This document shows, in pieces, positions 696 through 24,626 of a stretch of 64,000 bases of DNA. The translations under genes and the position numbers were made by a program. Source of the stretch: a virus. A model generated the notes under the pieces. That model searched no databases. It worked only from the letters and a program-made list of their open reading frames with translations, and was not told the origin of the DNA. The first letter of the stretch is position 1. Every line of letters begins with the position of its first letter. The stretch spans positions 1 to 64,000 of the IMG/VR virus record IMGVR_UViG_3300032050_000111; one strand, given 5' to 3'.

Positions 696-3296
696 TTAGC
701 CTTTTGCAAGGCCGTAACGTCGGTGTGCGCCGACTTCCGCTGCCAGAGGAACCCCCGGCATGTACTTTGGCTCTTGCACCATCATGGCAAGAATCCAATC
801 TCTTGCTTCTGCCTTCTCGGCTTCTGGTACTACAACAATCTGTTCGTCGTGCACGGTTCCTACAATAGGATAGCGCGCAGCAGTACGAATCATGCCGTCC
901 GTCATCACGATACGGGCCAGCCCTTGCGTGATGTTGTTGGTAATTTTCCCAGCGTACAGCTTAGTTTCATCTGCGCCGTACACCCACTCTGTGGTGACTC
1001 GGTTCTTCTTGCGTACCTTACGCGACTTGAGCCCGGGGTATCGGATGCTCATGCCGTTGGGGAACACGATCTGTTCTTTCCTGAACAGCAGGCACTTGTG
1101 CTGATACTCCTGCCCGCCGTACAGCGATTTCTCCAGCAGCTGCGTGCATAGCTCCCACAGCCCCACTACAGGATGCGCCGTTGCACGGTAAATGTCAATG
1201 ATCTTTTTCGCTGCCACGCAGTGGATGAGAAGCTCCTGAGCCGTACATGTGTGCGGGATCTCCGCCATCGCTGTTACGTTGTCCTCCCAGTCTACGAAGC
1301 GCTCGATGTAGTCACGCGTTACACCCAGCTTTTTGGCGAAGTCTTTGTCGTATCGAACCGGCGGAGCGCCCAGAAAACCAACCAGCAGCTGCGCAGCGAA
1401 CGATGCCCATCCTAGACCGTAGCCCGCACCCAGCAGCGCTGACTTCGCACTTTGCCGAAGATCGGGGTGCGTCTCTTTCGTCATGCCCGGTATGCCAAAC
1501 ATCTGCGCACCAAACATGGCGTAGGCGTCTTGCTTGGACCTGAAGATGTCCAGCATCTCGTCGTAGTCGGCTAGCCACCCCAGCACACGGGGCTCGATCT
1601 GCGACAGGTCGCCGACCACAAGCACGTTGCCTTCAGGAGCCATGATCGCCTTGCGCAGGAACGAACCGCGCTTGAGGTTCTGCATGTTGATGGCGCTGCC
1701 CTTGGAGGCAGTCCATCGGCCCGTAATGGCCCCGTAGTACGAGAGCGGCACGGGCAGTCTGCCGCGTTCCGAAATCTCCATGAAGCGCTGGGCGCGCGTC
1801 CGCTCGGTGGTGGACTTCACCCGCAGGCGCGTCTCGCAGAGCAGCGCCACGTCGCCGTTGTCGCCATTGAGCAGCGCTTGGAACATCGCGTCGTTCTTGG
1901 CGAAGGCGAACGTCTTGCCCGTCGGGTTCGGGTTTGTCGGCGTCGGTCGCTTCTTCTTCATGGGCGGCTCGACGCCCATACGCCGCAGCAACTCCGCGAA
2001 CTTCGGGTTGCTAGCCAGCGCTTCCTCCGGCACACCCAGCATAGCCAGCAGCGCCTCGCGGCTTTCCTTCTCCTCCATCAACGCGTCACTGAGCATGTCC
2101 GGGTCAAGCTCCAGCAACGGGCGTGTGTACATCTTCAACGTGATGTCGATCAGGCGAAGCTCGCTCTTGGGGAAGTTCTCCGCCAGACGCTTGTAGATTT
2201 CTTCGCAAAGAAAGACATCGTGCTTGCAGTACTCTGCAAGTTCTTTCTCCTCTTCCAGCATCAGCACGCCCATTTTACCGTCAGTGGTGTGCACTGCTTT
2301 GCCCTTAGGGGGCAGTCCGAATTCTTCAGCCAGCTTGGCTAAGCTGTTGCCTACCTCTATTCCTCGAAGCGCCCGGGCCATGGACAGCGTGTCGAGAATG
2401 AACGCAGGCTCGTGTCCGTAAACCCAAGTCAGCACAGACACATCGAACTGTGCGTTGTGACAGAGCACGGCAGTCGTGCTCCAATCAATCTCGTCAAACA
2501 CCCTGCGCAGATGAGTGTAGCCCACCCAGCGCGGGGGCTCATCCGAGCCTAGCCAATGCAGCCCAACGCCCCAAGCGCCGAAGCGTTTATCCCGTATGTA
2601 CTCCTCCGTGGTCATGCGGCGGATCGTGTATCCGTTCTTCGAGTCCCACTTGGTCTCAAAGTCGAGTGTCAGAATCTGTTTGAAAGGAGCACCCATGTTG
2701 TTCACCTTTAATGTGCGGTCATCTTTTGTTCGTCCATCATCGCCATGCCGTACGCTTGTGTCGCGGCTCGAAGCATCGCCAGCGCCGCCGCCCCGTCCGT
2801 GTGGTGGAGTGGTCTGACGTGCAGTTGCTCCTCCTCGATTTCGTGCAGCATGAACAGCGCTAGCACTTTCGAGTCGTCTGACTGAAGGTAGCAATTCACC
2901 AGCTGACGCAGTATCAACTGGAACTCCTGAAGCGCCTCGGGCTGCATGCGCAGCGTCTGGTGCACCAGCGCCAGCAGGTGCACATCCTCCATTCTCTTTT
3001 CTTCTTCGGATTGCATCGAGCACCTCTTCCAATTCGTGGAGATTGTCTTCATTGATTACCAAAGACACGCCGCCTGCAGCAGCGATGTCATCAAGCGCTT
3101 TTCTTTGTAGCGCTGTCGTGGTGCCCTTGCCTGCTTTGGCTTCTACTGCAACGAAGAAGCCGAGATAGCATATCAGAAAATCAGGTGTGCCTGACTTGCC
3201 GTACCCTGTACCTATGGGCATGGCGTAATAGGCTGCGTGCTTTGTCAGCACGTCGCGAATACGCCGCTTTACTTTAGCTTCTGGTGTAGCAGCCAT
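696..3296 (-). CDS. Family A DNA polymerase in one open frame with an N-terminal VRR-NUC nuclease
   Basis: An 866-codon frame with two recognisable parts. Residues 1 to about 105 form a VRR-NUC domain: GTPDFLICYLG, AVEAKAG (E-x-K) and a later Q with AAAGG, a small PD-(D/E)XK fold found stand-alone in many phages. From the ATG at 2696 a complete T7-type polymerase of 666 residues begins. Its 3'-5' exonuclease motifs are DFETKWD, NAQFD and YCKHD; its polymerase motifs are DLSQIEPR (A, about residue 362), RQSAKSALLGAGYG (B, about 413) and VHDEQ (C, about 614). The roughly 100 residues between them are low complexity and overlap another ORF. An AGGTG ribosome site lies 6 bases before 2696, so the polymerase is probably made on its own. 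Whether the fusion is ever made is open. Confidence 0.8.
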   Translation of the reverse strand: MAATPEAKVKRRIRDVLTKHAAYYAMPIGTGYGKSGTPDFLICYLGFFVAVEAKAGKGTTTALQRKALDDIAAAGGVSLVINEDNLHELEEVLDAIRRRKENGGCAPAGAGAPDAAHAARGASGVPVDTASAGELLPSVRRLESASAVHAARNRGGATARQTTPPHGRGGGAGDASSRDTSVRHGDDGRTKDDRTLKVNNMGAPFKQILTLDFETKWDSKNGYTIRRMTTEEYIRDKRFGAWGVGLHWLGSDEPPRWVGYTHLRRVFDEIDWSTTAVLCHNAQFDVSVLTWVYGHEPAFILDTLSMARALRGIEVGNSLAKLAEEFGLPPKGKAVHTTDGKMGVLMLEEEKELAEYCKHDVFLCEEIYKRLAENFPKSELRLIDITLKMYTRPLLELDPDMLSDALMEEKESREALLAMLGVPEEALASNPKFAELLRRMGVEPPMKKKRPTPTNPNPTGKTFAFAKNDAMFQALLNGDNGDVALLCETRLRVKSTTERTRAQRFMEISERGRLPVPLSYYGAITGRWTASKGSAINMQNLKRGSFLRKAIMAPEGNVLVVGDLSQIEPRVLGWLADYDEMLDIFRSKQDAYAMFGAQMFGIPGMTKETHPDLRQSAKSALLGAGYGLGWASFAAQLLVGFLGAPPVRYDKDFAKKLGVTRDYIERFVDWEDNVTAMAEIPHTCTAQELLIHCVAAKKIIDIYRATAHPVVGLWELCTQLLEKSLYGGQEYQHKCLLFRKEQIVFPNGMSIRYPGLKSRKVRKKNRVTTEWVYGADETKLYAGKITNNITQGLARIVMTDGMIRTAARYPIVGTVHDEQIVVVPEAEKAEARDWILAMMVQEPKYMPGVPLAAEVGAHRRYGLAKG
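2703..2707 (-). promoter_or_regulatory. Ribosome binding site deciding the polymerase start at 2696
   Basis: AGGTG lies 6 bases before the ATG at 2696 and directly after the TAA (2710-2708) of the small overlapping ORF. This arrangement favours a separate start for the polymerase inside the longer 866-codon frame. Confidence 0.65.
2708..2992 (-). CDS. Small ORF overlapping the VRR-NUC/polymerase linker, function unknown
   Basis: A 94-residue ORF in a different frame from VRR-NUC and the polymerase. It reads as a normal protein (helical, mixed composition: MEDVHLLALVHQTL, LALFMLHEIEEEQL), whereas the overlapping frame is alanine/glycine/arginine-rich and looks non-coding. It starts just after the VRR-NUC domain ends and stops with TAA immediately before the polymerase ribosome site, as expected for an independent gene between two others. 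An ATG at 3052 in the same frame is possible but would overlap the nuclease. The sequence before 2992 is only weakly ribosome-site-like. I do not recognise the family. Confidence 0.5.
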   Translation of the reverse strand: MEDVHLLALVHQTLRMQPEALQEFQLILRQLVNCYLQSDDSKVLALFMLHEIEEEQLHVRPLHHTDGAAALAMLRAATQAYGMAMMDEQKMTAH

Positions 3297-5759: not shown

Positions 5760-5980
5760 GTCTTCCATCCTTTCGGCGGCTCTGCGAGGCCGCGCCACGG
5801 GGCATCAGGCGTTCCAAAGAACGGGATCGTCTCTACCGCAGCAGACTCCTTTGTTGTGGCTCCAACAAACCAACGGTTGCCATCCCACCGCCGGTACCAA
5901 TTTATACTGTCGCTTTGTATCTCATACACCCCCGGATACACCGGCTTGACATGAGCGGGGAACCACGGTGTGAGTTTCAT
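5756..5980 (-). CDS. MKLTPWFPAH family protein, copy 2
   Basis: A 74-residue protein that opens MKLTPWFPAHVKPVYPGVYE and contains NWYRRWDGNRWF and WRGLAEPPKGW. It is a paralogue of the gene directly upstream; start, middle and end motifs align over the full length. The family is frequent in phages and prophages of Burkholderiales; its role is unknown. The ATG at 5980 overlaps the upstream TGA. Confidence 0.7.
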   Translation of the reverse strand: MKLTPWFPAHVKPVYPGVYEIQSDSINWYRRWDGNRWFVGATTKESAAVETIPFFGTPDAPWRGLAEPPKGWKT

Positions 5981-6198
5981 GCTTTCCCCCATCCTTTCGG
6001 CGGCTTTGCGAGGCCGCGCCACGGTAAAGGGCTGGCGCCTTTTAAGGTTGCGAGTGCTGCTATCTTTTTGTCAGAGTTACCACCATACCAACGCGTGCCA
6101 TCCCAGCGGCGATACCATGTACCGGGCGGGAACCGCACCTCATACACCCCCGGATACACCGGCTTGACATGAGCGGGGAACCACGGTGTCAGTTTCAT
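5977..6198 (-). CDS. MKLTPWFPAH family protein, copy 1
   Basis: A 73-residue protein with MKLTPWFPAHVKPVYPGVYE, then TWYRRWDGTRWYGG and WRGLAKPPKGW. It is nearly the same length as the next gene and shares long identical DNA stretches with it, so the pair arose by tandem duplication. It is tryptophan-rich and small. ATGA overlap with the upstream gene. Function unknown. Confidence 0.75.
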   Translation of the reverse strand: MKLTPWFPAHVKPVYPGVYEVRFPPGTWYRRWDGTRWYGGNSDKKIAALATLKGASPLPWRGLAKPPKGWGKA

Positions 6199-8104: not shown

Positions 8105-8130
8105 AAAAAAAGGGGGCCGTAGCCCCCTTT
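8105..8130 (-). terminator. Rho-independent terminator, leftward
   Basis: AAAGGGGGC (8109-8117) and GCCCCCTTT (8122-8130) pair around a CGTA loop. Read leftward, the stem is followed by a run of seven T. It ends the transcript of the gene at 8144-8413, so genes to its left need read-through or another promoter. Confidence 0.85.
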
Positions 8131-8143
8131 CGACTGGCTACGC

Positions 8144-8413
8144 TCAGGCAGTGCGCCAGACGCGATAGCCGATGGCTCCGTCCTTGGACGCAGCAGCGGT
8201 ACGGTAGCTGCGGTCCTTGTTCTTGCGCTTGTCGGCCATGCAGCTGGACGACACCCGACGCGCGAGCTTGCGCATCTCATCGTCGCGCTGGGCGGCGGGG
8301 ATGCCGTCAGCGAGCGGCACGAAGAACGACTGCCCCGGCTGGAGGCTGTCGAACGGATAGCGCCCGCTACGGGCACGGGCGGGAACGGGGACATCGGTCT
8401 CGATGGCGAACAT
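8144..8413 (-). CDS. Conserved phage protein with FPFDSLQPGQSFFVPL-type motif
   Basis: An 89-residue protein. YPFDSLQPGQSFFVP followed by a basic helix (DDEMRKLARRVSSS) is typical of a widespread small phage family (DUF7303-like) with unknown function. A shorter relative is at 58446-58634. A hairpin lies between it and the upstream DUF932 gene, and a terminator follows it. Confidence 0.7.
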   Translation of the reverse strand: MFAIETDVPVPARARSGRYPFDSLQPGQSFFVPLADGIPAAQRDDEMRKLARRVSSSCMADKRKNKDRSYRTAAASKDGAIGYRVWRTA

Positions 8414-8433
8414 GGTGATTCCTTGTAGTTGAT

Positions 8434-8449
8434 GGGGGCGTTAGCCCCC
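8434..8449. repeat. Junction stem-loop GGGGGC-GTTA-GCCCCC
   Basis: A 6-bp perfect stem in the gap between the DUF932 stop (8460) and the next start (8413). It is one of many gene-junction hairpins in the leftward early region. It has no T-run, so it is more likely an mRNA-end structure than a terminator. Confidence 0.55.
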
Positions 8450-8459
8450 GGGTTGTATC

Positions 8460-9449
8460 TCAGGCAGGCAGCAGGGCAGTCATGGCGTTGAGCGCGCGGT
8501 TCTTGATGTCGGCCCCCTGCCCCCACTGCGCAGCGACAAAGCGATTCTCGTCAGTGCGAGCGCGGGTCCAGTGGTCGACGTACTCAGTGACTGCGTTGAC
8601 GTAACCCCATGCTGTGCCGAAGACGCCGTCGAGTTTAGCACCCTTGCCGTCGCCGTTGAACAGGTCGATGATTTTGTTGTATCCGGCAGACAGTCGGACC
8701 TTGTCATCGCTGGGGCCGTTGCCTAGCAGGACTGCAGTGGTTACGTCGGCAAGCTCTGCGCTCACGGGGACATTGGCAAGGCGCACGATCTGGTGGCGGA
8801 ACGCAGCCCATGCTGCCTCGTTGAGGCCCATGAACTCCTTGACCTGTGAGGGGTCGAAAACGGAACGGTGCGTGACACGCACTGACGGCTTAGCGTCCGC
8901 CATGGCCATCGCCAGCGTGTTTTGGCACACGGTGCGCACTGATGTGCGACGTACCTCAGTGCCCGATGAACCGTCAGCGCTGGTGGAGACCAGCAGAAAG
9001 CCCCCGATGCTGTCCTTGATAGACAGCGGGCTGGCTTCGCCGATCTTGGCAGTCGCCCAGAAGCGCTTGCCTCCGTAGATCGTGCCAGCAGCGGACAACT
9101 CCAGCCCGCCCACCTTGACGATGTCGCGGAAGAACTCCAGCACTTCAGCAGGCTGGACGACCTTGTAGCGGTCACTGACGATGCCCAGCGCTGCCTTGGT
9201 GTCACTGCGGAACAGGACGTGCTGCTCCGGCAGTTCGAGGAAAGCGGACGCGTCGCCGGTACGGTCGACGGCGTAGCGCACCTTCGAGCGCTTGATGCAC
9301 CAGTTCATGCCGGCGGCGACACGCCACGCGTCGATGTCGGTGCCGTTGTCCACGGGGTTGCCAAGGCCGTGCCAGCCTGCGCCGTCTGCGCGCAGATAGG
9401 CGTACTCGATCTGGCCGGTCACGGTGTTGGTGGTGAGTTCGTGAGACAT
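8460..9449 (-). CDS. DUF932 (plasmid-related phage) protein
   Basis: A 329-residue protein of the DUF932 family. Signature stretches are GWHGLGNPV near the start, VLFRSDTKAALGIVSDRYKV, the TVCQNTLAMAM segment and the C-terminal FNGDGKGAKL...TAWGYVNAVTEYVDH. The family occurs in phages and plasmids as an early or accessory protein; biochemical function is not known. It starts after the common GGAGTCTCACC leader. Length is normal for the family. Confidence 0.85.
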   Translation of the reverse strand: MSHELTTNTVTGQIEYAYLRADGAGWHGLGNPVDNGTDIDAWRVAAGMNWCIKRSKVRYAVDRTGDASAFLELPEQHVLFRSDTKAALGIVSDRYKVVQPAEVLEFFRDIVKVGGLELSAAGTIYGGKRFWATAKIGEASPLSIKDSIGGFLLVSTSADGSSGTEVRRTSVRTVCQNTLAMAMADAKPSVRVTHRSVFDPSQVKEFMGLNEAAWAAFRHQIVRLANVPVSAELADVTTAVLLGNGPSDDKVRLSAGYNKIIDLFNGDGKGAKLDGVFGTAWGYVNAVTEYVDHWTRARTDENRFVAAQWGQGADIKNRALNAMTALLPA

Positions 9450-9532
9450 GGTGAGACTCCTAGAGTGGTGGTGAAGTGGGGGACGACGCCCCCGGTGAGA
9501 GAGACTATGGCAGATAGAGAACTGTGTGTCAA

Positions 9533-9820
9533 CTACTGCGGCTTGACACTGGCCGCCCTGTCGAGCATCTCGCGCATGGCCTGCACGGCGCTTACCTTAC
9601 GGTAGGTTGAGCGCATGTTGGCCGTGAAGTGCTCTTCAGTCATGCCTGCGGTGACTGCACAGGATGCTGCGATCCGACTGAGCACGGTGAGTACTGCGGC
9701 GTACATAGACGCTGAGTCTTCAGGCGTGTCTTCGGAGAAAGGCGCGGTGATGATGTCGATGGTGCGGATGATGCCTTCATCCATCGCGCGCATCATGTCG
9801 GTGACTGCTTTGTCTTTCAT
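9533..9820 (-). CDS. Hypothetical helical protein
   Basis: A 95-residue protein, mostly helical with many methionines (MMRAMDEGIIRTIDI, MYAAVLTVLSRIAAS, MREMLDRAAS). No family is recognised. The start carries the GGAGCAACACC leader typical of this region. An 83-base gap to the DUF932 gene holds a GGGGG/CCCCC stem at 9478-9493. Confidence 0.55.
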   Translation of the reverse strand: MKDKAVTDMMRAMDEGIIRTIDIITAPFSEDTPEDSASMYAAVLTVLSRIAASCAVTAGMTEEHFTANMRSTYRKVSAVQAMREMLDRAASVKPQ

Positions 9821-9831
9821 GGTGTTGCTCC

Positions 9832-10296
9832 TCAGAACAGGGCGTCTTCAGCGCCGGGGGTGGTGGTGCGGGTGGGTTTGCTGCGGGGTTTCTCGGGGAA
9901 CGGCCACAGGTTGTCGAGCGCCATGGGTCGAGGCTTCGGCTTGTCGTACTCCTGCGCGAACGCTTGGTGTTCCCTCTTGATGATGTGCTGCGCAATGGCC
10001 AGCAGCGCGTTGTCGAACAGCGCGTCTTCGGTCAACAGCACCGGGTCAGTGTAGCCGGGATCTTCCTTGTGCGCCGGGATCTGGTCATTGTACTCGGCGA
10101 TGAACTTCGAGCGCTTGCTGTCCAGCCTGATGCCGTAGTCGCCCAGCACGAGCAGATCGTTGTGCTCGACGGCATAGGTCAGTTCGATGCTCTCCGGCTC
10201 GACCTTGCGGTAGTACGTCATGAAGAACGGTGCCGTGCGGTCTAGGAACTCGCAGGCGTAGCTGAGGTGCTCAGGGGTGAACTCGTGGCGGGGCAT
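9832..10296 (-). CDS. Hypothetical early protein
   Basis: A 154-residue acidic protein (PRHEFTPEHLSYACEFLD, YRKVEPESIELTYAVEHND, LLVLGDYGIRLDSKR). Mixed alpha/beta; no motif recognised. The ATG at 10296 was chosen because GGAG is 7 bases upstream; the ATG at 10302 would overlap the ribosome site itself. The C-terminal tail is proline-, threonine- and basic-rich. Confidence 0.6.
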   Translation of the reverse strand: MPRHEFTPEHLSYACEFLDRTAPFFMTYYRKVEPESIELTYAVEHNDLLVLGDYGIRLDSKRSKFIAEYNDQIPAHKEDPGYTDPVLLTEDALFDNALLAIAQHIIKREHQAFAQEYDKPKPRPMALDNLWPFPEKPRSKPTRTTTPGAEDALF

Positions 10297-10298
10297 GG

Positions 10299-10595
10299 TC
10301 ATTCTCCTGTGGCTTTGGCGATGGCGGCTTGGGCTTTGGCCAGCGCCGCTTGATGGTCGAGGTCGAGGTCGTCTTCGATTTGTGCGAGCGCCCACTGCAG
10401 GGCTTCGAGCAAGGCGGGCGCACTCGCGATGAGGCGGGCGTTAGCCGCCTGTCTGGGCGTCATATCTCGGTAGCTGGTGATCATGCACACGGCGGTGTCG
10501 TCGTCGCTGTAGATCACGTTGTCCATGATGCACCACGGACCGGGAGTGTGCGTTTGTTTGAGGTTCCACGGGCCGGGCGTGTGCTTGGTCTTCAT
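10299..10595 (-). CDS. HTPGPW-motif phage protein
   Basis: A 98-residue protein opening with KHTPGPWNLKQTHTPGPW, so the HTPGPW motif is present twice. The core ANARLIASAPALLEAL is diagnostic of a large family of small phage proteins (Ea22/ead-related) of unknown function. The C-terminal half is an acidic and alanine-rich helix. The doubled motif looks like an internal duplication of the first 11 codons. Confidence 0.75.
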   Translation of the reverse strand: MKTKHTPGPWNLKQTHTPGPWCIMDNVIYSDDDTAVCMITSYRDMTPRQAANARLIASAPALLEALQWALAQIEDDLDLDHQAALAKAQAAIAKATGE

Positions 10596-10864
10596 GGTGT
10601 AGCGCCTGTTGCTTTGGTGAGTTTGTAAAGGTAGCTAGCTGTTTGTAGACAGTAGCCGTTGTTGTAGAAGTGGTCGGAGTCTTGGTGGATGATCTTCACG
10701 AGGCCCATCTCAACGAGTTGGTGCAGCGCCGTGCGTTCGCGACTGCCGAAAGACATCCGACCGCCGAGAGCGCCTCGGCCGCTGCCCGCCTCGACGGCGG
10801 CAGCGCCGCCGTGAGACCGCGCCCTGTCGATCAGCCTCTGCTGGGTTTTGGTGAGCGTGGTCAT
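10592..10864 (-). CDS. Small protein with possible winged-helix fold
   Basis: A 90-residue protein: TKTQQRLIDRARSHGG, a glycine-rich basic loop, then SRERTALHQLVEMGLVKII and a tail. The helix-turn-helix-wing order suggests DNA binding, but the match is weak. The start at 10864 follows the shared GGAGCTACACC leader; the longer in-frame ORF lies over the upstream gene. It overlaps the next gene by four bases. Confidence 0.55.
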   Translation of the reverse strand: MTTLTKTQQRLIDRARSHGGAAAVEAGSGRGALGGRMSFGSRERTALHQLVEMGLVKIIHQDSDHFYNNGYCLQTASYLYKLTKATGATP

Positions 10865-10877
10865 GGTGTAGCTCCTG

Positions 10878-11108
10878 TTACTCGGCTGCAGATTCTGCGG
10901 ACGAGATGGCGTCTTCGAGGTTGCTGCACGCGTCTTCGAGGTTGCTGACGGCTTGCTCCGCTGCCTCGCCACGCTCGCTGCCCTGCAGGCTCTCGGGCAT
11001 GTTGTCGTAGTACTCCTGCTCTTCATCGCGAGCGGTTTCGAGAATACTGAGCGCCTCTTGCAGCATGCCGATGGCTTTGTTGATCTCGGTGCGACGGTCT
11101 TTGTTCAT
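10878..11108 (-). CDS. Small acidic helical phage protein
   Basis: A 76-residue protein: RRTEINKAIGMLQEALSIL, DEEQEYYDNMPESLQGSERG, then AEQAVSNLEDACSNLEDA. The YYDNMPESLQGSERG block marks a very common phage family predicted to form a helical hairpin; its function is unknown. The end contains a short duplicated NLEDA unit. It begins with the standard junction leader. Confidence 0.75.
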   Translation of the reverse strand: MNKDRRTEINKAIGMLQEALSILETARDEEQEYYDNMPESLQGSERGEAAEQAVSNLEDACSNLEDAISSAESAAE

Positions 11109-11133
11109 GGTGTAGCTCCTAGTGGGGAAAGGT

Positions 11134-11151
11134 GCCGCCCCGAAGGGCGGC
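11134..11151. repeat. Junction stem-loop GCCGCCC-CGAA-GGGCGGC
   Basis: A 7-bp perfect stem between the stop at 11172 and the start at 11108. The same arms recur at 12418-12435 and 12806-12823 with different loops. Confidence 0.6.
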
Positions 11152-11171
11152 GGTTGGTCAGGGTGGTGTGG

Positions 11172-11639
11172 TCAGAGGTTGCGCACAATCGAGCGCAGGG
11201 CTTCGCGGACCTTCTCCTCGAAGGAGTCGCCGTCATCGTGCTGGTCGGACTCGTGGCGCTCCATGATGCGCTCGATCCAACTGTCGATGTCGCTCTCGTC
11301 GTTGTGCTCGCGCTCGTTGCAGTGCATCTCGATGCCGTCCTCGACGGCCTGCTCGGCCACGCTGGCGATGTACGCCTTGAGCGTGTCGATGTCGTTGAGG
11401 ATCGTCTTCTCGGCGGGCTCAGTGGGCGCAGCCGGTGCGTCGAACGCAGGCTGGGAGTTGGCCCAGTCCACGGTGCCGGTCAGCGGCGTCGCTACGCACT
11501 TCTGCTCCAGCACGGCGAGGCGCTCGGACAGCCTGATGATGTACTCCTCCTGCGCATTGATCGTGCGCTGCAGGGGCAGCGTGTACTTCTCGATGGCAGC
11601 GGTGAGGGCGGTGTTGATGATGGTGTTGAGGTCGATCAT
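11172..11639 (-). CDS. Hypothetical acidic protein
   Basis: A 155-residue protein. The N-terminal half is a helix with coiled-coil character (LPLQRTINAQEEYIIRLSER). A proline/alanine linker follows, then an acidic C-terminal half (CNEREHNDESDIDSWIERI, ESDQHDDGDSFEEKV). The very acidic tail recalls DNA-mimic or SSB-like tails, but no family is recognised. It starts after the shared leader and is preceded by a GGGCGC/GCGCCC stem at 11664-11680. Confidence 0.55.
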   Translation of the reverse strand: MIDLNTIINTALTAAIEKYTLPLQRTINAQEEYIIRLSERLAVLEQKCVATPLTGTVDWANSQPAFDAPAAPTEPAEKTILNDIDTLKAYIASVAEQAVEDGIEMHCNEREHNDESDIDSWIERIMERHESDQHDDGDSFEEKVREALRSIVRNL

Positions 11640-11688
11640 GGTGAGACTCCTGTGGTGAGAAGAGGGCGCGGTGTGCGCCCGGTGGTTA

Positions 11689-11709
11689 ACTGTGACAACG
11701 TGTCACAGT
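11689..11709. repeat. GACA-N3-TGTC palindrome, class A (ACTGTGACA-ACG-TGTCACAGT)
   Basis: 9-bp perfect arms with a 3-base spacer. The TGA stop of the gene at 11703-12092 lies inside the right arm. Same class as 13950-13968 and 16786-16804. Confidence 0.75.
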
Positions 11710-12092
11710 CTGAAGTCGCCGTCGAGGATGGTGTCCATCCTGCCTGCTTGTACGAAGAACGCTGCCATGTCTGCACGTTCATACGTAGTGTAGCCTAGCA
11801 GTGTGAGTGCTGCAAGCATGCCTTGCAAGTAGGCTTCGCCCTGTGCTGTGTAGGCTTTGCTTGTGGGCTTGAGCTTGAACTCGCGGGCGCGCATCTTCCA
11901 TACCTCGGCGAGTTTGCGTTCAAGGTCTGGCAGTCGCTGCACTGCGGCAAGCTGGGTGAGTATCGCTTCGTACTGCTGCGCGTGCTCGTTGGGCGCCGTG
12001 GCTTTAAGCTGCCGCTTCACAAGCTCTTGCAGCGTGCTGATGGTCTGCTCGTCAAGCAGGCGCATGTACAGGGTGGTGTTGTCGGTCGTCAT
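11703..12092 (-). CDS. Hypothetical early protein
   Basis: A 129-residue protein, largely helical (LLDEQTISTLQELVKRQL, YEAILTQLAAVQRLPDLERKL), with a short aromatic C-terminal part. No motif is recognised. The ATG at 12092 has a GGGAG site 7 bases before it. The stop codon is formed by the class A palindrome, so gene end and palindrome have travelled together. Confidence 0.55.
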   Translation of the reverse strand: MTTDNTTLYMRLLDEQTISTLQELVKRQLKATAPNEHAQQYEAILTQLAAVQRLPDLERKLAEVWKMRAREFKLKPTSKAYTAQGEAYLQGMLAALTLLGYTTYERADMAAFFVQAGRMDTILDGDFRL

Positions 12093-12094
12093 GG

Positions 12095-12391
12095 TCAAGC
12101 TCCCTTCTTGGTTGCATTACGGTCAAGGAAAATCAGCCAATCTTTTTCGCTCAGGCGACGCACAAAGAGCCTGCGCCCTTTGACAACGCGTGCGTGTGCG
12201 TTGATCGCCTTGATCACAGGCGACTCCACAGCGCCGTTGCTGTTCACCCGATCTTGGGACGGGTCTACGCGTACAATAACGAACGCCTGCGCTTCGAGCA
12301 GCGCGAACATCGCGTCGTTGTCGACTACTTGCTTCGTCGGAGGGTCGATGGGCGTCAACGTGTACGCCCACTCCGGTATGTTGTGCTTCAT
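12095..12391 (-). CDS. Hypothetical early protein
   Basis: A 98-residue protein: WAYTLTPIDPPTKQ, FALLEAQAFVIVRVDPSQDR, HARVVKGRRLFVRRLSEKDW. It is a basic, mixed alpha/beta protein without a recognised motif. It is followed within a few bases by the next gene and preceded by a class C stem-loop (12418-12435). Confidence 0.55.
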   Translation of the reverse strand: MKHNIPEWAYTLTPIDPPTKQVVDNDAMFALLEAQAFVIVRVDPSQDRVNSNGAVESPVIKAINAHARVVKGRRLFVRRLSEKDWLIFLDRNATKKGA

Positions 12392-12417
12392 GGTGATAGC
12401 TCCTGTGGTGAGAGAGT

Positions 12418-12435
12418 GCCGCCCCGGAGGGCGGC
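12418..12435. repeat. Junction stem-loop GCCGCCC-CGGA-GGGCGGC
   Basis: 7-bp arms identical to those at 11134-11151 and 12806-12823. It lies directly between the stop at 12442 and the ribosome site for the next gene. Confidence 0.6.
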
Positions 12436-12441
12436 GGTTGG

Positions 12442-12780
12442 TTAGCTGGCAAAGAGTGCGTCTGGTACTTCGACCTCGTCGCCCAGCTTGCTAGCGACGT
12501 AGCACCGCATGGCTGCGATCAGGGGGGTGTGGCCTTCGTATGCGGGGCCATCTTTGTGCGCCATCCAGCAGTCACGTTCGGGACTTTGCTGGATCGTGAT
12601 CCCCTCCCGCTCGATGAGCGGCCCGCCACGAGGCCAGTCATCCGAGTAGCGCGGACTGGACAAGACACCCCTGTTCAGAAAGTCCTGATACCAACTCTTG
12701 TGCCCGGCTACAGATGCTTCGCATTGGTCTACCGCCCAGTCGAGCGTGGGGCCAATGAGGTCGGTCGTCTTGATCTTCAT
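12442..12780 (-). CDS. DUF2591 phage protein
   Basis: A 112-residue protein. TLDWAVDQCE near the start, PRYSDDWPRGGPLIEREGI in the middle and TPLIAAMRCYVASKLGDEV near the end are the three conserved blocks of DUF2591, a common phage early-region family of unknown function. The start at 12780 follows the shared GGAGTTACATC leader. Length is usual for the family. Confidence 0.85.
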   Translation of the reverse strand: MKIKTTDLIGPTLDWAVDQCEASVAGHKSWYQDFLNRGVLSSPRYSDDWPRGGPLIEREGITIQQSPERDCWMAHKDGPAYEGHTPLIAAMRCYVASKLGDEVEVPDALFAS

Positions 12781-12805
12781 GATGTAACTCCTGTGGTGAG
12801 AGAGT

Positions 12806-12823
12806 GCCGCCCGTGTGGGCGGC
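12806..12823. repeat. Junction stem-loop GCCGCCC-GTGT-GGGCGGC
   Basis: Third copy of the class C arms, between the stop at 12831 and the DUF2591 start. The loop differs from the other copies while the arms are identical. Confidence 0.6.
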
Positions 12824-12830
12824 GGGGTGG

Positions 12831-13097
12831 TTAACGGGTAGCGAGCTTCGCACGAATGCGAGAGACGATCTCGGGGAGTTGGCATTCGTAGGCTTGGAAG
12901 ACGATGCCTCCGCCGAATTGTTTGTTGTGATATCTGCGGCCGCCGAGCGCGTTGGCGGCTTTCACAACGCGTGCGTACCTATCGCTGAGCGTTAGCGTGT
13001 AGTCTGGCGCGGGCTCAAGGTCGAGGAAATGGCACACGTAACGGGGGTTGCCGTTCACGTCACTGTTGATGCGGGTCCAGTCAATATTCGTGGTCAT
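12831..13097 (-). CDS. Hypothetical early protein
   Basis: An 88-residue protein: RYVCHFLDLEPAPDYTLTLS, ARVVKAANALGGRRYHNKQFG, IVFQAYECQLPEIVSRIR. It reads like a small alpha/beta fold found in several phages, without known function. The start at 13097 has the shared leader; an ORF start at 13166 would cover the class B palindrome. Confidence 0.6.
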   Translation of the reverse strand: MTTNIDWTRINSDVNGNPRYVCHFLDLEPAPDYTLTLSDRYARVVKAANALGGRRYHNKQFGGGIVFQAYECQLPEIVSRIRAKLATR

Positions 13098-13120
13098 GCT
13101 GTAACTCCTGTGGTGGAAAG

Positions 13121-13157
13121 CGGGACAACTTGTTACCGGGACAAGATGTCCCGGTAA
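13121..13157. repeat. GACA-N3-TGTC palindromes, class B (TTACCGGGACA-AGA-TGTCCCGGTAA)
   Basis: 11-bp perfect arms at 13133-13143 and 13147-13157. A degraded extra half-site (CGGGACA-ACT-TGT) precedes it at 13121. It lies between the stop at 13167 and the next start at 13097. Confidence 0.75.
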
Positions 13158-13166
13158 TCCCGGCAT

Positions 13167-13922
13167 TCAGTTGGCTGCGATGTTGATGACCCGGCGCTTG
13201 TGGCCCGGGGCGTGGTCGAGGATGACGATGCTGCGCGCCGTGGGGTGAGCCCCCGAGCAAAGCCGGCAGTCAGCACACTGCGTGCGCTTGCCCGCCTCGG
13301 CAGAGGCAGGACAGCTGATCTCGATTGGTGAGCGCGTGGGCTCGGTGGCTACGCGAAACGTACGCCACCCGCGTGCGTGGGCAAGCCGCTGCTCCTCGGG
13401 ACTGTCGACACTGGCCATGAACAGCTTGCGCGCGCGGGGCGATGCGTCGAGCCACTGATGCGTGTAGCCCGTGTGCCCACGAGCGTAGGTGATCAGCGCC
13501 CGCCAGATGTGCAGGGGCGCAGCCAGCGGGTCACCGTATGTGCCGAACCGTACCATCCGAGCAATGATGAGCAGCGCGACTTCGAGCGCCGACGCACGAA
13601 CGTAGGACCCGCGCAAGTATGCGCGAAACACGGCTGCGACTGAGCGCCCCGTGTCGACATAGCAGGGCGGCTCACCTGTGAGCTTGGCTAGGATGGGCCT
13701 GTGCATGCACTGCCCGCAGATGCTGGCGTCGGCCCCTGTGCGTACTGCCTCGACCGGATGCATGTCGGTGCGGATGATGAATGTCTGCACCATAGCGCCG
13801 GTCTTGGCGTTGGATGATTTGCTGTGTACGCCGGTCACGATCACTGCTATGGGCGCCCCGTCAATCTCTGACGGGCCTTCGTAGATGATGTAGCCGGCGG
13901 GCTTGCGTGCTTTGTTTGCCAT
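13167..13922 (-). CDS. Conserved phage protein with YEGPSEIDG start and CGQC motif
   Basis: A 251-residue protein. GYIIYEGPSEIDGAPIAVI, the KTGAMVQTFIIR stretch and ICGQCMHRP define a family I have seen in phages and plasmids with no established function. Further cysteines (CPASAEAG, CADCRLCSGAH) suggest a zinc site. The helical centre (YVRASALEVALLIIARM) and HQWLDASPRARKLFMASVDS segments are conserved-looking. The start at 13922 follows GGAGCTTTCATC. A class A palindrome lies just before it. Confidence 0.65.
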   Translation of the reverse strand: MANKARKPAGYIIYEGPSEIDGAPIAVIVTGVHSKSSNAKTGAMVQTFIIRTDMHPVEAVRTGADASICGQCMHRPILAKLTGEPPCYVDTGRSVAAVFRAYLRGSYVRASALEVALLIIARMVRFGTYGDPLAAPLHIWRALITYARGHTGYTHQWLDASPRARKLFMASVDSPEEQRLAHARGWRTFRVATEPTRSPIEISCPASAEAGKRTQCADCRLCSGAHPTARSIVILDHAPGHKRRVINIAAN

Positions 13923-13949
13923 GATGAAAGCTCCTAGTGGGAGTGGTAA

Positions 13950-13968
13950 CTGTGACACCGTGTCACAG
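13950..13968. repeat. GACA-N3-TGTC palindrome, class A (CTGTGACA-CCG-TGTCACAG)
   Basis: 8-bp arms with a CCG spacer, five bases beyond the TAA of the gene at 13974-14687. Confidence 0.75.
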
Positions 13969-13973
13969 ATAGG

Positions 13974-14687
13974 TTAGCGCCGGGTCGGTTGGCGCGGGGG
14001 CTCCTTCGCCCGGTCCAGAAGCAGCGGCGGGCGTCGGGGAAAGAAGGCGTAGAGAGAGTGGGCGGTGTAGATGCCCCTCAGGCTTGCGAGATCGCGCTCC
14101 AAGGCGTCCGTGAGGGTGGCCCGCCACCCTCCTACCTTGGCAGGCAGTCCGGGCGTCAGGCGGGCTCTGAGCAGGGCCGCATCGCGGATGCGCCGCAACA
14201 GGACGAGGTAGGCATCGAGCCAATCGATCAGCGCCGGGGGTACCCCCGGACGGCCGCGCGCCGCGTCGTGCCGGAACTTGGAGCGCCTCGATGACATGAT
14301 CCGATCCTCGGCACGGAGGATGGCGAGTTCGTCTTTCCACGCGTCGATGCGTTGCTGCACCCGTGCTTGGCTGAGAAGCGCTCGGGTGAGATTGTGCTTG
14401 CGTGTGAGATCGTGCTCGATGAGGTGTGCGCGTCGGATGCCAGTGCGGTGAGCGCTCTCTATCAAGGGTCGGGGTTGCTGGGTCGGGCGGTACGAACCGC
14501 GTGGATGACATGCGCGGCATATCTCCTCGTAGATGTAGACAGCTTGTCGGCCTGCTGCGCGCAGCTGATCGAGCGTGTCCTGATTAAGGCGTCGCGCTAG
14601 CTCGTCTCCCCATAGCTTGCGACGAAAAGCTATGCGGTTCTTTGCCTTGAGACAAAGGGGGCAGATGCGTGTTGGATCTGTGGTCAA
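13974..14687 (-). CDS. Hypothetical protein with N-terminal zinc finger
   Basis: A 237-residue, very basic protein (many Arg). CPLCLKAKNRIAFRRKLW and a later CRACHP provide two CxxC pairs, suggesting a zinc-binding N-terminus. The rest is helical with LARRLNQDTLDQLRAAGRQ, HDLTRKHNLTRALL and ALIDWLDAYLVLLRRIRDAA. DNA or RNA binding is plausible but not shown. The start is a TTG at 14687, with GGAG about 8 bases upstream; no ATG is available near the cysteines. Confidence 0.6.
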   Translation of the reverse strand: MTTDPTRICPLCLKAKNRIAFRRKLWGDELARRLNQDTLDQLRAAGRQAVYIYEEICRACHPRGSYRPTQQPRPLIESAHRTGIRRAHLIEHDLTRKHNLTRALLSQARVQQRIDAWKDELAILRAEDRIMSSRRSKFRHDAARGRPGVPPALIDWLDAYLVLLRRIRDAALLRARLTPGLPAKVGGWRATLTDALERDLASLRGIYTAHSLYAFFPRRPPLLLDRAKEPPRQPTRR

Positions 14688-14809
14688 AATGTGATCTCCG
14701 ATTACTGTTTAACGTGAGACACGAGGTCCAAGCCATCGAAAAAGCGCAGAGGAATCAAAGCCTTAGGCTGAATTCGGGCGAGATGCTGAAAAGGTCGGAC
14801 GACAAAATG

Positions 14810-14977
14810 TCAGGGATGAAGCCATCGAAAGAGCCCAATAAAATCAACGACTTGAGGGTCGATTGGCAGGAATCCACATGCGGCGGGGGTACACACCCCT
14901 ATGGCGCCGCCGAACGACCAACTTTTCAGGGCCATTGTCAAAAAGTTTACAAGACTTTGGGAGGACGGCGGCGCCAT
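14810..14977 (-). CDS. Possible 55-residue ORF
   Basis: A leftward ORF: MAPPSSQSLVNFLTMALKSW, then SFGGAIGV and CGFLPIDPQVVDFIGLFRWL. The composition is protein-like, with hydrophobic and aromatic residues well spaced. Against it: AAAGG abuts the ATG with no spacing, the gap to neighbours is large, and the opposite strand is also open. The region could equally be a conserved RNA. Confidence 0.3.
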   Translation of the reverse strand: MAPPSSQSLVNFLTMALKSWSFGGAIGVCTPAACGFLPIDPQVVDFIGLFRWLHP

Positions 14978-14985
14978 CCTTTCTA

Positions 14986-15016
14986 TACTACTCTAAATAG
15001 ATAGGATAGAGTAGTA
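14986..15016. repeat. 10-bp inverted repeat TACTACTCTA / TAGAGTAGTA
   Basis: Arms at 14986-14995 and 15007-15016 are perfect inverse complements with an 11-base AT-rich loop. It is AT-rich against a GC-rich background, which suits an operator, a hairpin or a melting site. Confidence 0.6.
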
Positions 15017-15145
15017 GTAGTGGGCAGGCAGGTTATTGAAATGCAAGCGCTTTTTCGAGGGGTTGGGGGAGGGGGCGCATGTTGTGAAAGGGGAGCAGGG
15101 ATGTAAAGCCGTTTAAGACTTTACAAACTCTTTACAAACGTTGGA

Positions 15146-15168
15146 CAAGCCCGCACGAGGCGGGCTTG
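15146..15168 (-). terminator. Stem-loop after the gene at 15182, weak terminator candidate
   Basis: CAAGCCCGC (15146-15154) pairs with GCGGGCTTG (15160-15168) around ACGAG. It lies just past the stop of the leftward gene. No T-run follows, so it may be an mRNA-stabilising hairpin rather than a true terminator. Confidence 0.5.
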
Positions 15169-15181
15169 ACATTTGACAAAG

Positions 15182-15640
15182 TCAGTCGCAGACGATCCGC
15201 TTGACTTCGCGCTTGACAACTTCCTCCGTTGTCTCAACTACCTCAATGCGACAGTTTTTGCTGTCGCTCTTGACATAGGCGCAGACCATCATGGTGATCG
15301 CGAGCCCATCGCATTCTTTGCGGAATGAAAAGTCGCGATTGGGCCTATCGAAGGTGTAGTCGCTGGTGTGCGTGCACGCGAAGCCTTCATCTTCGAGTGC
15401 TGCAAGAAGACGCACGAGTTTGGCGGACTTGAACCCCGAAAGGTTGTGCATGTACACCGTCACATGCACTGACTGGGAGTGCGGACTGACGCTGACGTAC
15501 GGCTGTACTTTGCGGGGCAGCACCTTGTGCAGCACCGTGCGCAGCGCCATGCTGTCCATGGACTTGGTCCACTTGAGCGCGGCTTCGACATCGTTGCGGG
15601 CGCTGGTCAGAGCACGGGTGATTTCGTCACGAAGGGACAT
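15182..15640 (-). CDS. Hypothetical early protein
   Basis: A 152-residue protein. The N-terminus is helical (LRDEITRALTSARNDVEAAL); the rest alternates strands and helices (VSVSPHSQSVHVTVYMHNL, LVRLLAALEDEGF, IEVVETTEEVVKREVKRI). No family is recognised. The start at 15640 follows GGAGTCTC; the longer in-frame ORF to 15718 runs across the class B palindrome and is unlikely. Confidence 0.55.
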   Translation of the reverse strand: MSLRDEITRALTSARNDVEAALKWTKSMDSMALRTVLHKVLPRKVQPYVSVSPHSQSVHVTVYMHNLSGFKSAKLVRLLAALEDEGFACTHTSDYTFDRPNRDFSFRKECDGLAITMMVCAYVKSDSKNCRIEVVETTEEVVKREVKRIVCD

Positions 15641-15657
15641 GAGAGACTCCTGAAAGG

Positions 15658-15682
15658 TTGCCGGGACAAAGTGTCCCGGCAA
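15658..15682. repeat. GACA-N3-TGTC palindrome, class B (TTGCCGGGACA-AAG-TGTCCCGGCAA)
   Basis: 11-bp perfect arms, just upstream of the ribosome site for the gene starting at 15640. Confidence 0.8.
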
Positions 15683-15735
15683 GGTGCAGTGTCGCACCGC
15701 ACAGCCCACGCAGTGCATAGGCTGTACGTTGGACG

Positions 15736-15846
15736 CTAGAACAAAGCCATGCCCATCCAGAGCGTGGCGAACATGAGGATGAAGACCGCGAGGGCCTCCG
15801 CGTAGAGCAGTGCCGTCTTGATGCGACGGCGGGTCTTGAAGGACAT
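15736..15846 (-). CDS. 36-residue single-pass membrane protein
   Basis: A tiny ORF: MSFKTRRRIKTALLYAEA then LAVFILMFATLWMGMALF. A basic N-terminus followed by one strongly hydrophobic helix predicts a membrane protein with its N-terminus in the cytoplasm. The GGAG site with the usual AGCTTTCACGTG leader precedes the ATG at 15846. Role unknown; a membrane-acting early peptide is plausible. Confidence 0.55.
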   Translation of the reverse strand: MSFKTRRRIKTALLYAEALAVFILMFATLWMGMALF

Positions 15847-15860
15847 CACGTGAAAGCTCC

Positions 15861-16208
15861 TCAGTAGTTGTACCAGATGCTGGTACGGATCAAGACCTTG
15901 CGCCCCTTGCGGCGCAAGACGCGGGCGCTGTGGGTAGCGCACCCGCAGCCGTCGTACTCGTGTTGACAGCGCGACCCTGACAATGTCGCGACTAGCGCAC
16001 GTGTCGCTTCGTCTCGCTCTTTGCGGGACAGCCTCGGGCCGAGCGTGGCCCACATCAGGGACACGTCGCCTGTATCGTAGTCGATGCGCTCTTCGACCAC
16101 ACGCGCAGGCGTGAGGCGCACGTTGAAGTCGCGCCCCCATGTGTCGAGGTGTCCCCACCCTGCGCGGTAGCGGTGGGTCAGACGGGCAGCGACAGTGGTT
16201 TGGATCAT
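15861..16208 (-). CDS. Hypothetical basic protein with cysteine cluster
   Basis: A 115-residue protein. It has TVAARLTHRYRAGWGHLDTW, VVEERIDYDTGDVSLMWATL and a cluster CQHEYDGCGC that may hold a metal. The C-terminus is basic (RVLRRKGRKVLIRTSIW). No family recognised. The start at 16208 follows GGAGCTTTCAC. It is separated from the previous gene by a class B palindrome. Confidence 0.55.
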   Translation of the reverse strand: MIQTTVAARLTHRYRAGWGHLDTWGRDFNVRLTPARVVEERIDYDTGDVSLMWATLGPRLSRKERDEATRALVATLSGSRCQHEYDGCGCATHSARVLRRKGRKVLIRTSIWYNY

Positions 16209-16229
16209 GTGAAAGCTCCTGAAAGATTG

Positions 16230-16248
16230 CCGGGACATTCTGTCCCGG
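16230..16248. repeat. GACA-N3-TGTC palindrome, class B (CCGGGACA-TTC-TGTCCCGG)
   Basis: 8-bp arms directly abutting the TAA stop (16249-16251) of the gene at 16249-16761. Confidence 0.75.
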
Positions 16249-16761
16249 TTAGGCGAACTCGCGGGCAATGATCACCCGCGCTTGACGGATGCGCTCCGCC
16301 GTGTACTGCGCGTTTGCACGCGCCTCGGAGAGGCGCAGCGTAGCCACGACGGTTGTCAAATGGGGGAACATCACCTCCCATTTACCTTTCCCGCTCTGCC
16401 AGTACGACCAGCGCTCCTCGAACGATGCGCGGCTATGCATGTATGAGTCCAGCGTCTCGTACCAGCGCAAGCGCTGGTCGGACGTTTCGTACCTCAGCAT
16501 TTCGTGCGGCCCGCCGGCCAGCACTTTCATCGCGGCGTGGATGCCGCGATCATAGAGGAGGGCGCAGCGCTGCCCCTCTACTTCGAGGTGGCCGTCGGGT
16601 GTGAGCCCGACCCACTGGTCTGGATTGGTGGACGCGTGCTCGTCCACCCAATACACCCCGCAATCGAGGAAGTACTCCACATCGGAGTACTTCGCGACCT
16701 CGGCCTGCATGGCCGACGCCTTGGCGCGCTGCGCCGGGGTGAGTTTGAAGCGTACGTACAT
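16249..16761 (-). CDS. Hypothetical early protein
   Basis: A 170-residue protein. The N-terminus (YVRFKLTPAQRAKASAMQ) leads into VEYFLDCGVYWVDEHAS, a central LLYDRGIHAAMKVLAGGPHE and a long helical C-terminus (LRLSEARANAQYTAERIRQA). No family recognised. The start at 16761 has GGAGCTTTCACA upstream. It is bordered by class A and class B palindromes. Confidence 0.55.
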   Translation of the reverse strand: MYVRFKLTPAQRAKASAMQAEVAKYSDVEYFLDCGVYWVDEHASTNPDQWVGLTPDGHLEVEGQRCALLYDRGIHAAMKVLAGGPHEMLRYETSDQRLRWYETLDSYMHSRASFEERWSYWQSGKGKWEVMFPHLTTVVATLRLSEARANAQYTAERIRQARVIIAREFA

Positions 16762-16785
16762 TGTGAAAGCTCCTAGTGGTGGTAA

Positions 16786-16804
16786 CTGTGACAGAGTGTC
16801 ACAG
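16786..16804. repeat. GACA-N3-TGTC palindrome, class A (CTGTGACA-GAG-TGTCACAG)
   Basis: 8-bp arms. The TGA of the small ORF at 16799-16876 is part of the right arm, as at 11703. Confidence 0.7.
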
Positions 16805-16876
16805 CAGCAGCATGGCAGCGGACGCGAGCCCGCTGATGATGAGCGCCGCGATGGCGGCGAAGTCGTCTTGGTTCAT
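16799..16876 (-). CDS. 25-residue hydrophobic peptide (possible)
   Basis: The ORF reads MNQDDFAAIAALIISGLASA followed by AMLLL: a short polar start and one hydrophobic helix. It fits between two palindromes, and its stop is embedded in one, like the larger gene at 11703. There is no strong ribosome site, so it is only possible. Confidence 0.35.
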   Translation of the reverse strand: MNQDDFAAIAALIISGLASAAMLLL

Positions 16877-16951
16877 GGGGGTTTTGAAGCCTTGAAGTGT
16901 GGCGGAACAGGGCGACCCCACAGCGTAGAGTCACGCTGCCCTCGGAAGAAA

Positions 16952-16976
16952 TTGCCGGGACACGATGTCCCGGCAA
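16952..16976. repeat. GACA-N3-TGTC palindrome, class B (TTGCCGGGACA-CGA-TGTCCCGGCAA)
   Basis: 11-bp perfect arms, 16 bases beyond the stop of the gene at 16992-17465. The arms match those at 15658-15682; only the spacer differs. Confidence 0.8.
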
Positions 16977-16991
16977 CCGCTGTGTCCAATA

Positions 16992-17465
16992 TCAAGCCGC
17001 ACGCGCCTCGGCGATAGCCGTGGCGAGAAGCCGCGAGGCTTCTTCGTACTCACCACAAGCCTTGACCAGCTTAGCGGCAATCTTCGCGATGTGATCGGGC
17101 ACCTCGATGGGTTCCTTTTCTTCCTTTTTCTTCTGAGACTGCCCGATCAGGGCTTTGATCCAGCGCTCGTGGGCCTTTTTAGCGGCCGCGCCGGCCTTGT
17201 CTTCCGGCCAGCAGAGCGCGCCGGCCGTCGCGCCACGGGTGCCGACCGTGAGGACCACGCCTTTGGCGGCGGCAAAGCCTCTCAGCGTCTTTGCCTTGAC
17301 ATCGGCAAAGGCGGCACCGCGCAACTCGCGGCGAGCCGCGAGCAGGCGCATGGCCTGCTCGGAACCATCGTTCACCATCACGGTGAACGACACGGCATCG
17401 TCCCATTTCATGGTCGCGACGGCCGCGACGGAAGCGTGGGCGAGAGTGGTAGTGAATTGCGTCAT
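16992..17465 (-). CDS. First gene of the leftward early operon, function unknown
   Basis: A 157-residue protein. The N-terminal half is compact (TTTLAHASVAAVATMKWDDA, VNDGSEQAMRLLAARRELRG), then VKAKTLRGFAAAKGVVLTVG, a lysine/glutamate linker (QKKKEEKEP) and a C-terminal helix (AKLVKACGEYEEASRLLATA). As the first gene after the control region it is probably expressed immediately. No family recognised. The ATG at 17465 was chosen; the ORF to 17552 reads through the class B palindrome. Confidence 0.6.
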   Translation of the reverse strand: MTQFTTTLAHASVAAVATMKWDDAVSFTVMVNDGSEQAMRLLAARRELRGAAFADVKAKTLRGFAAAKGVVLTVGTRGATAGALCWPEDKAGAAAKKAHERWIKALIGQSQKKKEEKEPIEVPDHIAKIAAKLVKACGEYEEASRLLATAIAEARAA

Positions 17466-17487
17466 GAGAGCACCTATGCAAGGTTGT

Positions 17488-17504
17488 CGGGACATGTTGT
17501 CCCG
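17488..17504. repeat. GACA-N3-TGTC palindrome, class B (CGGGACA-TGT-TGTCCCG)
   Basis: 7-bp perfect arms in the leader of the first leftward gene. No gene ends here, so this copy cannot be explained only as a gene-end hairpin. Confidence 0.7.
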
Positions 17505-17674: not shown

Positions 17675-17718
17675 CCCCTATTTTGTAAAATTTGCCCTGT
17701 TGTTTTGTCCAAAGTCAA
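17675..17718. repeat. 44-bp direct repeat, copy 1
   Basis: It begins CCCCTATTTTGTAAAATTTG and ends TTTTGTCCAAAGTCAA. It matches copy 2 at 17757 with one mismatch in 44; the offset is 82 bp. Read leftward it starts TTGACT, a good -35 shape, and has AT-rich TTTTACAAAAT downstream, but no clear -10 at 17 bp. It is a promoter or repressor/activator site candidate. Confidence 0.75.
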
Positions 17719-17756: not shown

Positions 17757-17800
17757 CCCCTATTTTGTAAAATTTGCCCTGTTGTTTTGTCCAATGTCAA
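17757..17800. repeat. 44-bp direct repeat, copy 2
   Basis: Second copy of the repeat at 17675. Read leftward it begins with a perfect TTGACA -35 hexamer. The single mismatch between copies changes TTGACT to TTGACA, so the two copies may differ in promoter strength. Confidence 0.75.
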
Positions 17801-17818
17801 ATTCTCACACGCAAGCAT

Positions 17819-17845
17819 AAAAAAAGCCCCCGGCGTGCGGGGGCT
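17819..17845 (-). terminator. Rho-independent terminator, leftward, upstream of the terminase gene
   Basis: AGCCCCCG (17825-17832) pairs with CGGGGGCT (17838-17845) around GCGTG; leftward the stem is followed by seven T (17825-17819). It points away from the late genes and would stop antisense or leftward transcription before the early promoters. Confidence 0.8.
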
Positions 17846-17871
17846 AAGCTTCAGGAGAGAGGAGACAGGCC

Positions 17872-24611: not shown

Positions 24612-24626
24612 ACACAGGAGTCAAAC

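Follow-up and report, generated by a model that had tools for sequence, protein, structure and literature searches.

Short sequences that recur between genes have been described in several groups of phages. In Cluster K phages, start-associated sequences (SAS) and their extended form (ESAS) are short repeats with a ribosome site at the starts of non-structural genes, some with an upstream inverted repeat; they precede genes of different families, their consensus varies by subgroup, and according to the source paper their role is not established and the ESAS, which are 17-bp imperfect repeats, gave little support for an RNA hairpin (PMC12699233). Cluster O mycobacteriophages (Corndog) carry many copies of a 17-bp dyad, a 7-bp inverted repeat with a 3-nt spacer, many of them intergenic; a gene can be present or absent between two repeats. 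These dyads have no tie to translation starts and no clear orientation, and were suggested to be DNA-binding sites (PMC4351075). In lambdoid phages, short, conserved boundary sequences have been proposed as joints for module exchange (cited in PMC3029335). Here, we describe a repeated junction unit, built around a G+C-rich stem, between the early genes of IMG/VR virus record IMGVR_UViG_3300032050_000111, of which positions 1 to 64,000 (the window) were analysed, most of the 65,626-base record. We consider it rather likely, from sequence evidence, that the stem forms an RNA hairpin where two translation units meet, and that the short unit around it doubles as homology for gene exchange.

In mRNA orientation the unit lies directly after a stop codon and 13-28 nt ahead of a start codon, and the same genome can carry it in front of several unrelated genes. 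As in SAS/ESAS, an inverted repeat stands just upstream of non-structural genes; in contrast to the imperfect ESAS, the stems here are perfect and have UNCG loops in the mRNA sense (N, any base), and the window leaders are without the SAS 13-mer, a 13-bp GGGATAGGAGCCC-like repeat 3-7 bp before starts. The window also holds a first class of stems, the GACA dyads, which is very like the Cluster O dyads; the second, G+C class has 4-nt loops and a strong orientation, unlike those dyads with their invariant arms, 3-nt spacer and lack of orientation. Lambdoid boundary sequences, as cited, differ in that the joint here would also be an RNA hairpin with a ribosome site.

Two further systems come from T4-type phages. 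The PeSL, reportedly described by Arbiol and colleagues in 2010, are said to be mobile intergenic stem-loop cassettes that are linked with small-gene shuffling and carry an early promoter. The intergenic stem-loops tied to small-gene shuffling are alike, but an early promoter in each cassette was not found here, in a scan for sigma-70-like promoters that gave 1 hit (9532-9504, the sole promoter-like junction match) against 2.5 by chance. Tuerk and colleagues reportedly found, in 1988, C(UUCG)G-capped hairpins in T4 intercistronic regions; these are likewise capped stems between genes in phage mRNA, whereas in the window and its relatives it is the complete junction, stop codon and ribosome site included, that recurs and changes hands. 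SAS/ESAS, Cluster O dyads, boundary sequences, PeSL and the T4 hairpins are known relatives in kind. No description of this junction module was recognised in the literature, in a search that left most subscription journals outside and is hence no proof of absence. Searches of cultured phages with the window junction gave short weak matches only. Cultured Delftia phage PhiW-14 (GQ357915.1) has GGGGGC-UUCG-GCCCCC-ACAACCCAAGGA between the stop and start of nrdA and nrdB; this phage is T4-related, with just two GGGGGC-N4-GCCCCC sites in 157 kb.

Junction hairpins and their probable structure as RNA

The early genes begin at 17.5 kb on the minus strand and extend to a DNA polymerase gene (696-3296), and the plus-strand late genes start near those for the large terminase (18608) and portal protein (20170). 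Exact GCCGCCC-N4-GGGCGGC stems occur at 11134-11151, 12418-12435 and 12806-12823, each flanked by a stop codon and by the Shine-Dalgarno (SD) sequence and ATG of a minus-strand gene. They are far above chance, with 0.09 sites expected from shuffles even when one mismatch is allowed, and a preliminary description had placed all three correctly; a fourth, one-mismatch site of this type falls beyond the early region, at 19480. The same description had reported constant arms with changing loops CGAA, CGGA and GTGT. The loops do vary, but those are plus-strand letters; because the genes are on the minus strand, the mRNA loops are UUCG (11134), UCCG (12418) and ACAC (12806).

All junctions that follow are read on the minus strand. 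Before the NinX-like gene, named by protein match, the order is TAA, CCACCCC, GCCGCCC-ACAC-GGGCGGC, ACTCTCTCACCAC and AGGAG (12781-12830); before gene 12095-12391 it is TAA, CCAACC, GCCGCCC-UCCG-GGGCGGC, ACTCTCTCACCAC and AGGAG (12392-12441); and before gene 10878-11108 it is TGACCAACC, GCCGCCC-UUCG-GGGCGGC, a G-free linker and AGGAG (11109-11171). Of two stems first described as GGGGGC-type, the one before gene 8144-8413 (junction 8414-8459) is a 6-bp hairpin, GGGGGC-UAAC-GCCCCC (8434-8449), followed by a linker and AAGGA; contig L014 also has a stem here and L005 has none. The other, in the junction of the DUF932 gene (9450-9532), turned out to be a 5-bp stem with a 6-nt loop, GGGGG-CGTCGT-CCCCC (9478-9493), with the promoter-like TTGACA-17-CATAGT upstream (9532-9504). 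Two stems had been overlooked. The junction at 11640-11708 holds both stem classes: a CTGTGACA dyad (11690-11708) that overlaps the stop codon, the stem GGGCGC-ACACC-GCGCCC (11664-11680) and then CACCACAGGAG. An intrinsic terminator of the same stem type, AAAGGGGGC-UACG-GCCCCCTTT followed by T7, lies at 8109-8130, and has the loop UUCG in L005.

The six G+C-type window stems stand 25, 26, 24, 25, 28 and 20 nt from their starts. Leaders in the window read CACCACAGGAGTTACATC, ACTAGGAGCTACACC and similar, and are G-poor over 11 starts, with 0 G in 66 pre-SD bases and 1 G in 78 spacer bases against 28.5% G; minus-strand copies of CACAGGAGT lie at 13112, 12795 and 11654, with a single plus-strand copy at 24613. 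At other window junctions the same slot is filled by a GACA dyad, such as TTACCGGGACA-N3-TGTCCCGGTAA at 13133-13157. Among 24 early junctions defined by hand-made gene calls, 13 gaps are at least 40 nt long and all 13 hold a stem, which bears out the earlier remark that stems separate many early genes; a stem lies within about 40 nt of the start in 12 of them, and only the long gap ahead of 14687 departs from this. The other 11 gaps, at most 13 nt, were too short and were excluded from the stem search. Since stems fill the long gaps and the other genes overlap or nearly touch, the early operon is a series of coupled gene groups, most with a stem at the head. With automated gene calls, a stem was found in 7 of 8 early window gaps of 30-130 nt (0.5 in shuffles), in 44 of 98 gaps in nine relatives together (7.0 in shuffles, summed) and in 0 of 2 gaps in the late region of the window.

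Loop sense was compared at 173 loci chosen independently of hairpins (the window and relatives of DUF932, 79; terminase, 14; and window gene g13922, 79), where stems immediately preceding an SD and start codon were collected and deduplicated C-G-closed 4-nt loops counted. UNCG loops make up 27 of 65 start-adjacent loops in the sense direction and 0/65 in antisense, against 30/481 and 58/481 for the other C-G-closed tetraloop hairpins of these loci (Fisher p 5.6e-13, uncorrected for kinship among loci). A stop triplet lies at most 12 nt upstream in 24 of the 27 UNCG junction stems and in 873 of 3083 other hairpins. Because the UNCG loops occur in sense only, the junction stem would be an RNA hairpin and not merely a DNA dyad, and the conserved thing looks like RNA structure rather than DNA alone.

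An arms-free scan of IMG/VR used the flanks alone (CCAACC-N16-ACAACCAAGGAG) and gave 22 matches in 18 stretches, with a perfect 6-bp stem in 19 and 0, 1 and 3 pairs in the other three; these 19 represent few gene families and include repeated contigs. Inside the same flanks the arms are GGGGGC/GCCCCC or the reverse order, and several different open reading frames (ORFs) start downstream. When the arms were set to GCCGCCC and the loop was free, 11 matches came up, one from the window's own species; 10 have UNCG loops and one a GNRA loop (GCAA). Covariation in an alignment of junction stems (A1; 21 two-sided changes, 100% paired) was discounted as independent evidence because its rows were picked for perfect stems; the arms-free scan is the fair test.

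These data bear on the idea that a dimeric repressor uses the dyads as DNA operators, a role of the type suggested for the 17-bp dyads of Cluster O by the authors who described them (PMC4351075). The GACA class suits it better, having constant GGGAC/GTCCC arms in the window (13133-17504), 8-9 copies per record in four relatives and, over the 173 loci, never a UNCG loop. For the GCCGCCC/GGGGGC class, an operator would not be expected to show sense-only UNCG loops, which weaken this candidate, or a swap of arm order within fixed flanks, and we regard the explanation as improbable.

The stems might instead act as intrinsic terminators or attenuators, weak ones that set graded levels of expression across the early operon, and the T7 terminator at 8109-8130 shows that a true terminator of this stem type exists. 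The GACA dyads of relatives are also often followed by T runs (TTTT in 13/19), which are frequent there and not in the window. Junction stems with UNCG, UNAC or GNRA loops mostly miss the U tract that the terminator at 8109-8130 has, with TTTT after just 2 of 40, and this weakens the terminator reading of the second class. A terminator scan picked no window GCCGCCC junction on the minus strand, the scan being incomplete in that it also misses 8109-8130. Such termination or attenuation seems unlikely to us, and because T runs are common after GACA dyads and rare after the other stems, the two classes probably differ in function.

Genes gained, lost or replaced at the junction

A table of 220 junctions with 121 downstream protein families, which includes loci from pattern scans, shows GGGGGC arms before 14 families and GCCGCCC arms before 10, while homologous genes with differing junction cores occur in several (families 3, 5, 6, 7, 8 and 19). 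Alike arms were found in 57 of 293 within-genome pairs and 531 of 16912 between-genome pairs, and 0 of 2000 label shuffles reached 57; the arms are common far more within a genome than between genomes.

Three comparisons of contigs catch the unit at the edge of a difference. L102 and L104 differ at 6 of 3062 bases on the left flank and at 1 of the first 789 bases on the right (loop UACG vs UCCG); between these flanks, L102 carries 227 bp more than L104: a gene of 62 codons plus one hairpin unit, set between two copies of the unit. L101 has the same gene and hairpin as L102, differing at a loop base only in the compared stretch, and then another gene, the identity stopping at the 3' end of the hairpin. 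L146, a near-twin of the window, is equal to it over 939 bases up to the first copy of a 13-nt leader, AGGAGCTTTCACA (16762-16774, minus strand), then is without 554 bp (gene 16249-16761 and one junction); the match picks up again at the second copy (16208-16220), with 10 mismatches in 483 bases afterwards. In all three, homology breaks at a common short sequence, as in boundary sequences, and by sequence comparison a gene with its unit is shown to be gained, lost or replaced as a block. L005, which is without the genes from 13097 to 11639, has a composite junction at that place: its left part, with the dyad, is like the window junction of g13097, and its hairpin and linker match that of g12391, although the next gene is a homologue of g11108.

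The preliminary description had seen here a reusable gene cassette in which the DNA between genes is conserved. This holds in part. In its favour are the unit before unrelated genes, the homologues with different cores and the three natural cases; what changes is that RNA structure rather than just DNA appears conserved, and that arms are alike mainly within a genome.

Several observations weigh against a hairpin that both marks translation units and joins genes. All three natural cases are metagenome contigs, in which assembly errors at a short repeat are conceivable. L005 keeps the gene order at g9820|g9449 and g9449|g8413 without a hairpin, so the hairpin is not needed there, and same-order relatives without conserved junctions, which the preliminary description took as counting against its cassette, are found to that extent. 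A 25-kb scan of DSL-LC04, the nearest cultured relative found (by terminase and DUF932), turned up no junction of this kind, and UNCG junction stems occur in 23 of the 173 loci only. Exposure of the SD by the hairpin was rejected as a role, since folding of 40 junctions gave no clear support (mean unpaired probability 0.48 native vs 0.44 shuffled, higher in 24/40, p 0.03) and the three window junctions in the set score below their own shuffles. Alignment breaks are enriched at hairpin-free gene starts too (323 vs 119 expected), and the enrichment near hairpin junctions is only somewhat stronger (48 vs 11.2 expected); because of this, no claim is made for hairpins as recombination hot spots, as breaks cluster at gene starts generally.

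These breaks, with the gene orders that lack a hairpin, are what would be seen if mosaic exchange took place at gene borders anyway and the stems were neutral by-products, their repeats spread by chance. Neutral spread does not fit the sense bias of UNCG, the homogeneity of arms within genomes or the conserved flanks, and we hold it to be improbable.

Other features of the window

The window had no Rfam match at gathering score; with E up to 1 there were two matches, neither on the G+C junction stems. A match to RF02278, a Betaproteobacteria toxic small RNA, stays below threshold (31.3 bits against a gathering score of 50; E 0.004). It lies at 17818-17867 on the minus strand, within the divergent control region, and has a terminator-like stem and T run at 17845-17825. 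Two 44-nt copies between the early and late genes (17675-17718 and 17757-17800; 98% alike, 82 bp apart) are possible origin or promoter repeats. No clear gene is seen in the ~490 bp at 14690-15180, which hold two 35-nt copies (14730 and 14819; 77% alike) and a stem at 15146-15168. Gene 12831-13097 (minus strand) has a Pfam match to TreK (E 1.2e-21), which is named after a Staphylococcus phage terminal-repeat protein. ORF 5977-6198 (minus strand) and its neighbour are tandem paralogues, and the protein of 5977-6198 is 64% identical to the next ORF of same-species contig L004. Bacterial-genome relatives of the window DUF932 protein are mostly from Proteobacteria.

The junction unit in early operons

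In the account that we favour, the stems would be RNA hairpins in a long early mRNA, in a unit that runs from the preceding stop codon to the start codon by way of a short stretch free of G, a G+C stem that in most cases has a stable tetraloop at its tip, a linker poor in G and a ribosome site. The stem would mark where one translation unit stops and its successor begins, and may bar terminating ribosomes, exonucleases or upstream structure from the next ribosome site; a gene shielded in this way would work wherever its unit is copied, and the units, being short direct repeats, would also supply homology for gene exchange. This is the best-supported explanation of the data, its border half resting on sequence statistics and position and its exchange half on the three natural cases, and the biochemical role of the hairpin is one that we infer. 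Hairpins in other intercistronic regions are known to protect mRNA ends. It is possible, if less probable, that the stems protect or define processed mRNA ends, as an exonuclease barrier or nuclease site that gives each unit its own half-life, and their place directly after the stop codon and their very stable loops agree with this; in the present data, such a role and that of an insulator appear to predict alike.

It has long been asked how phages can exchange small genes and still keep a working genome; short boundary sequences and illegitimate recombination are rival answers. Near-identical contigs that differ by exactly one gene and one hairpin unit make the joint visible and testable. Engineers have built hairpin-insulated ribosome sites, and the junction unit looks like their natural counterpart. 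As a tentative extension, which we think doubtful as yet, many uncultured phages may build their early operons from interchangeable parts, with a module of stop codon, tetraloop hairpin and ribosome site that both insulates and joins genes, and whose likeness within a genome would be maintained by the advantage that exchange brings.

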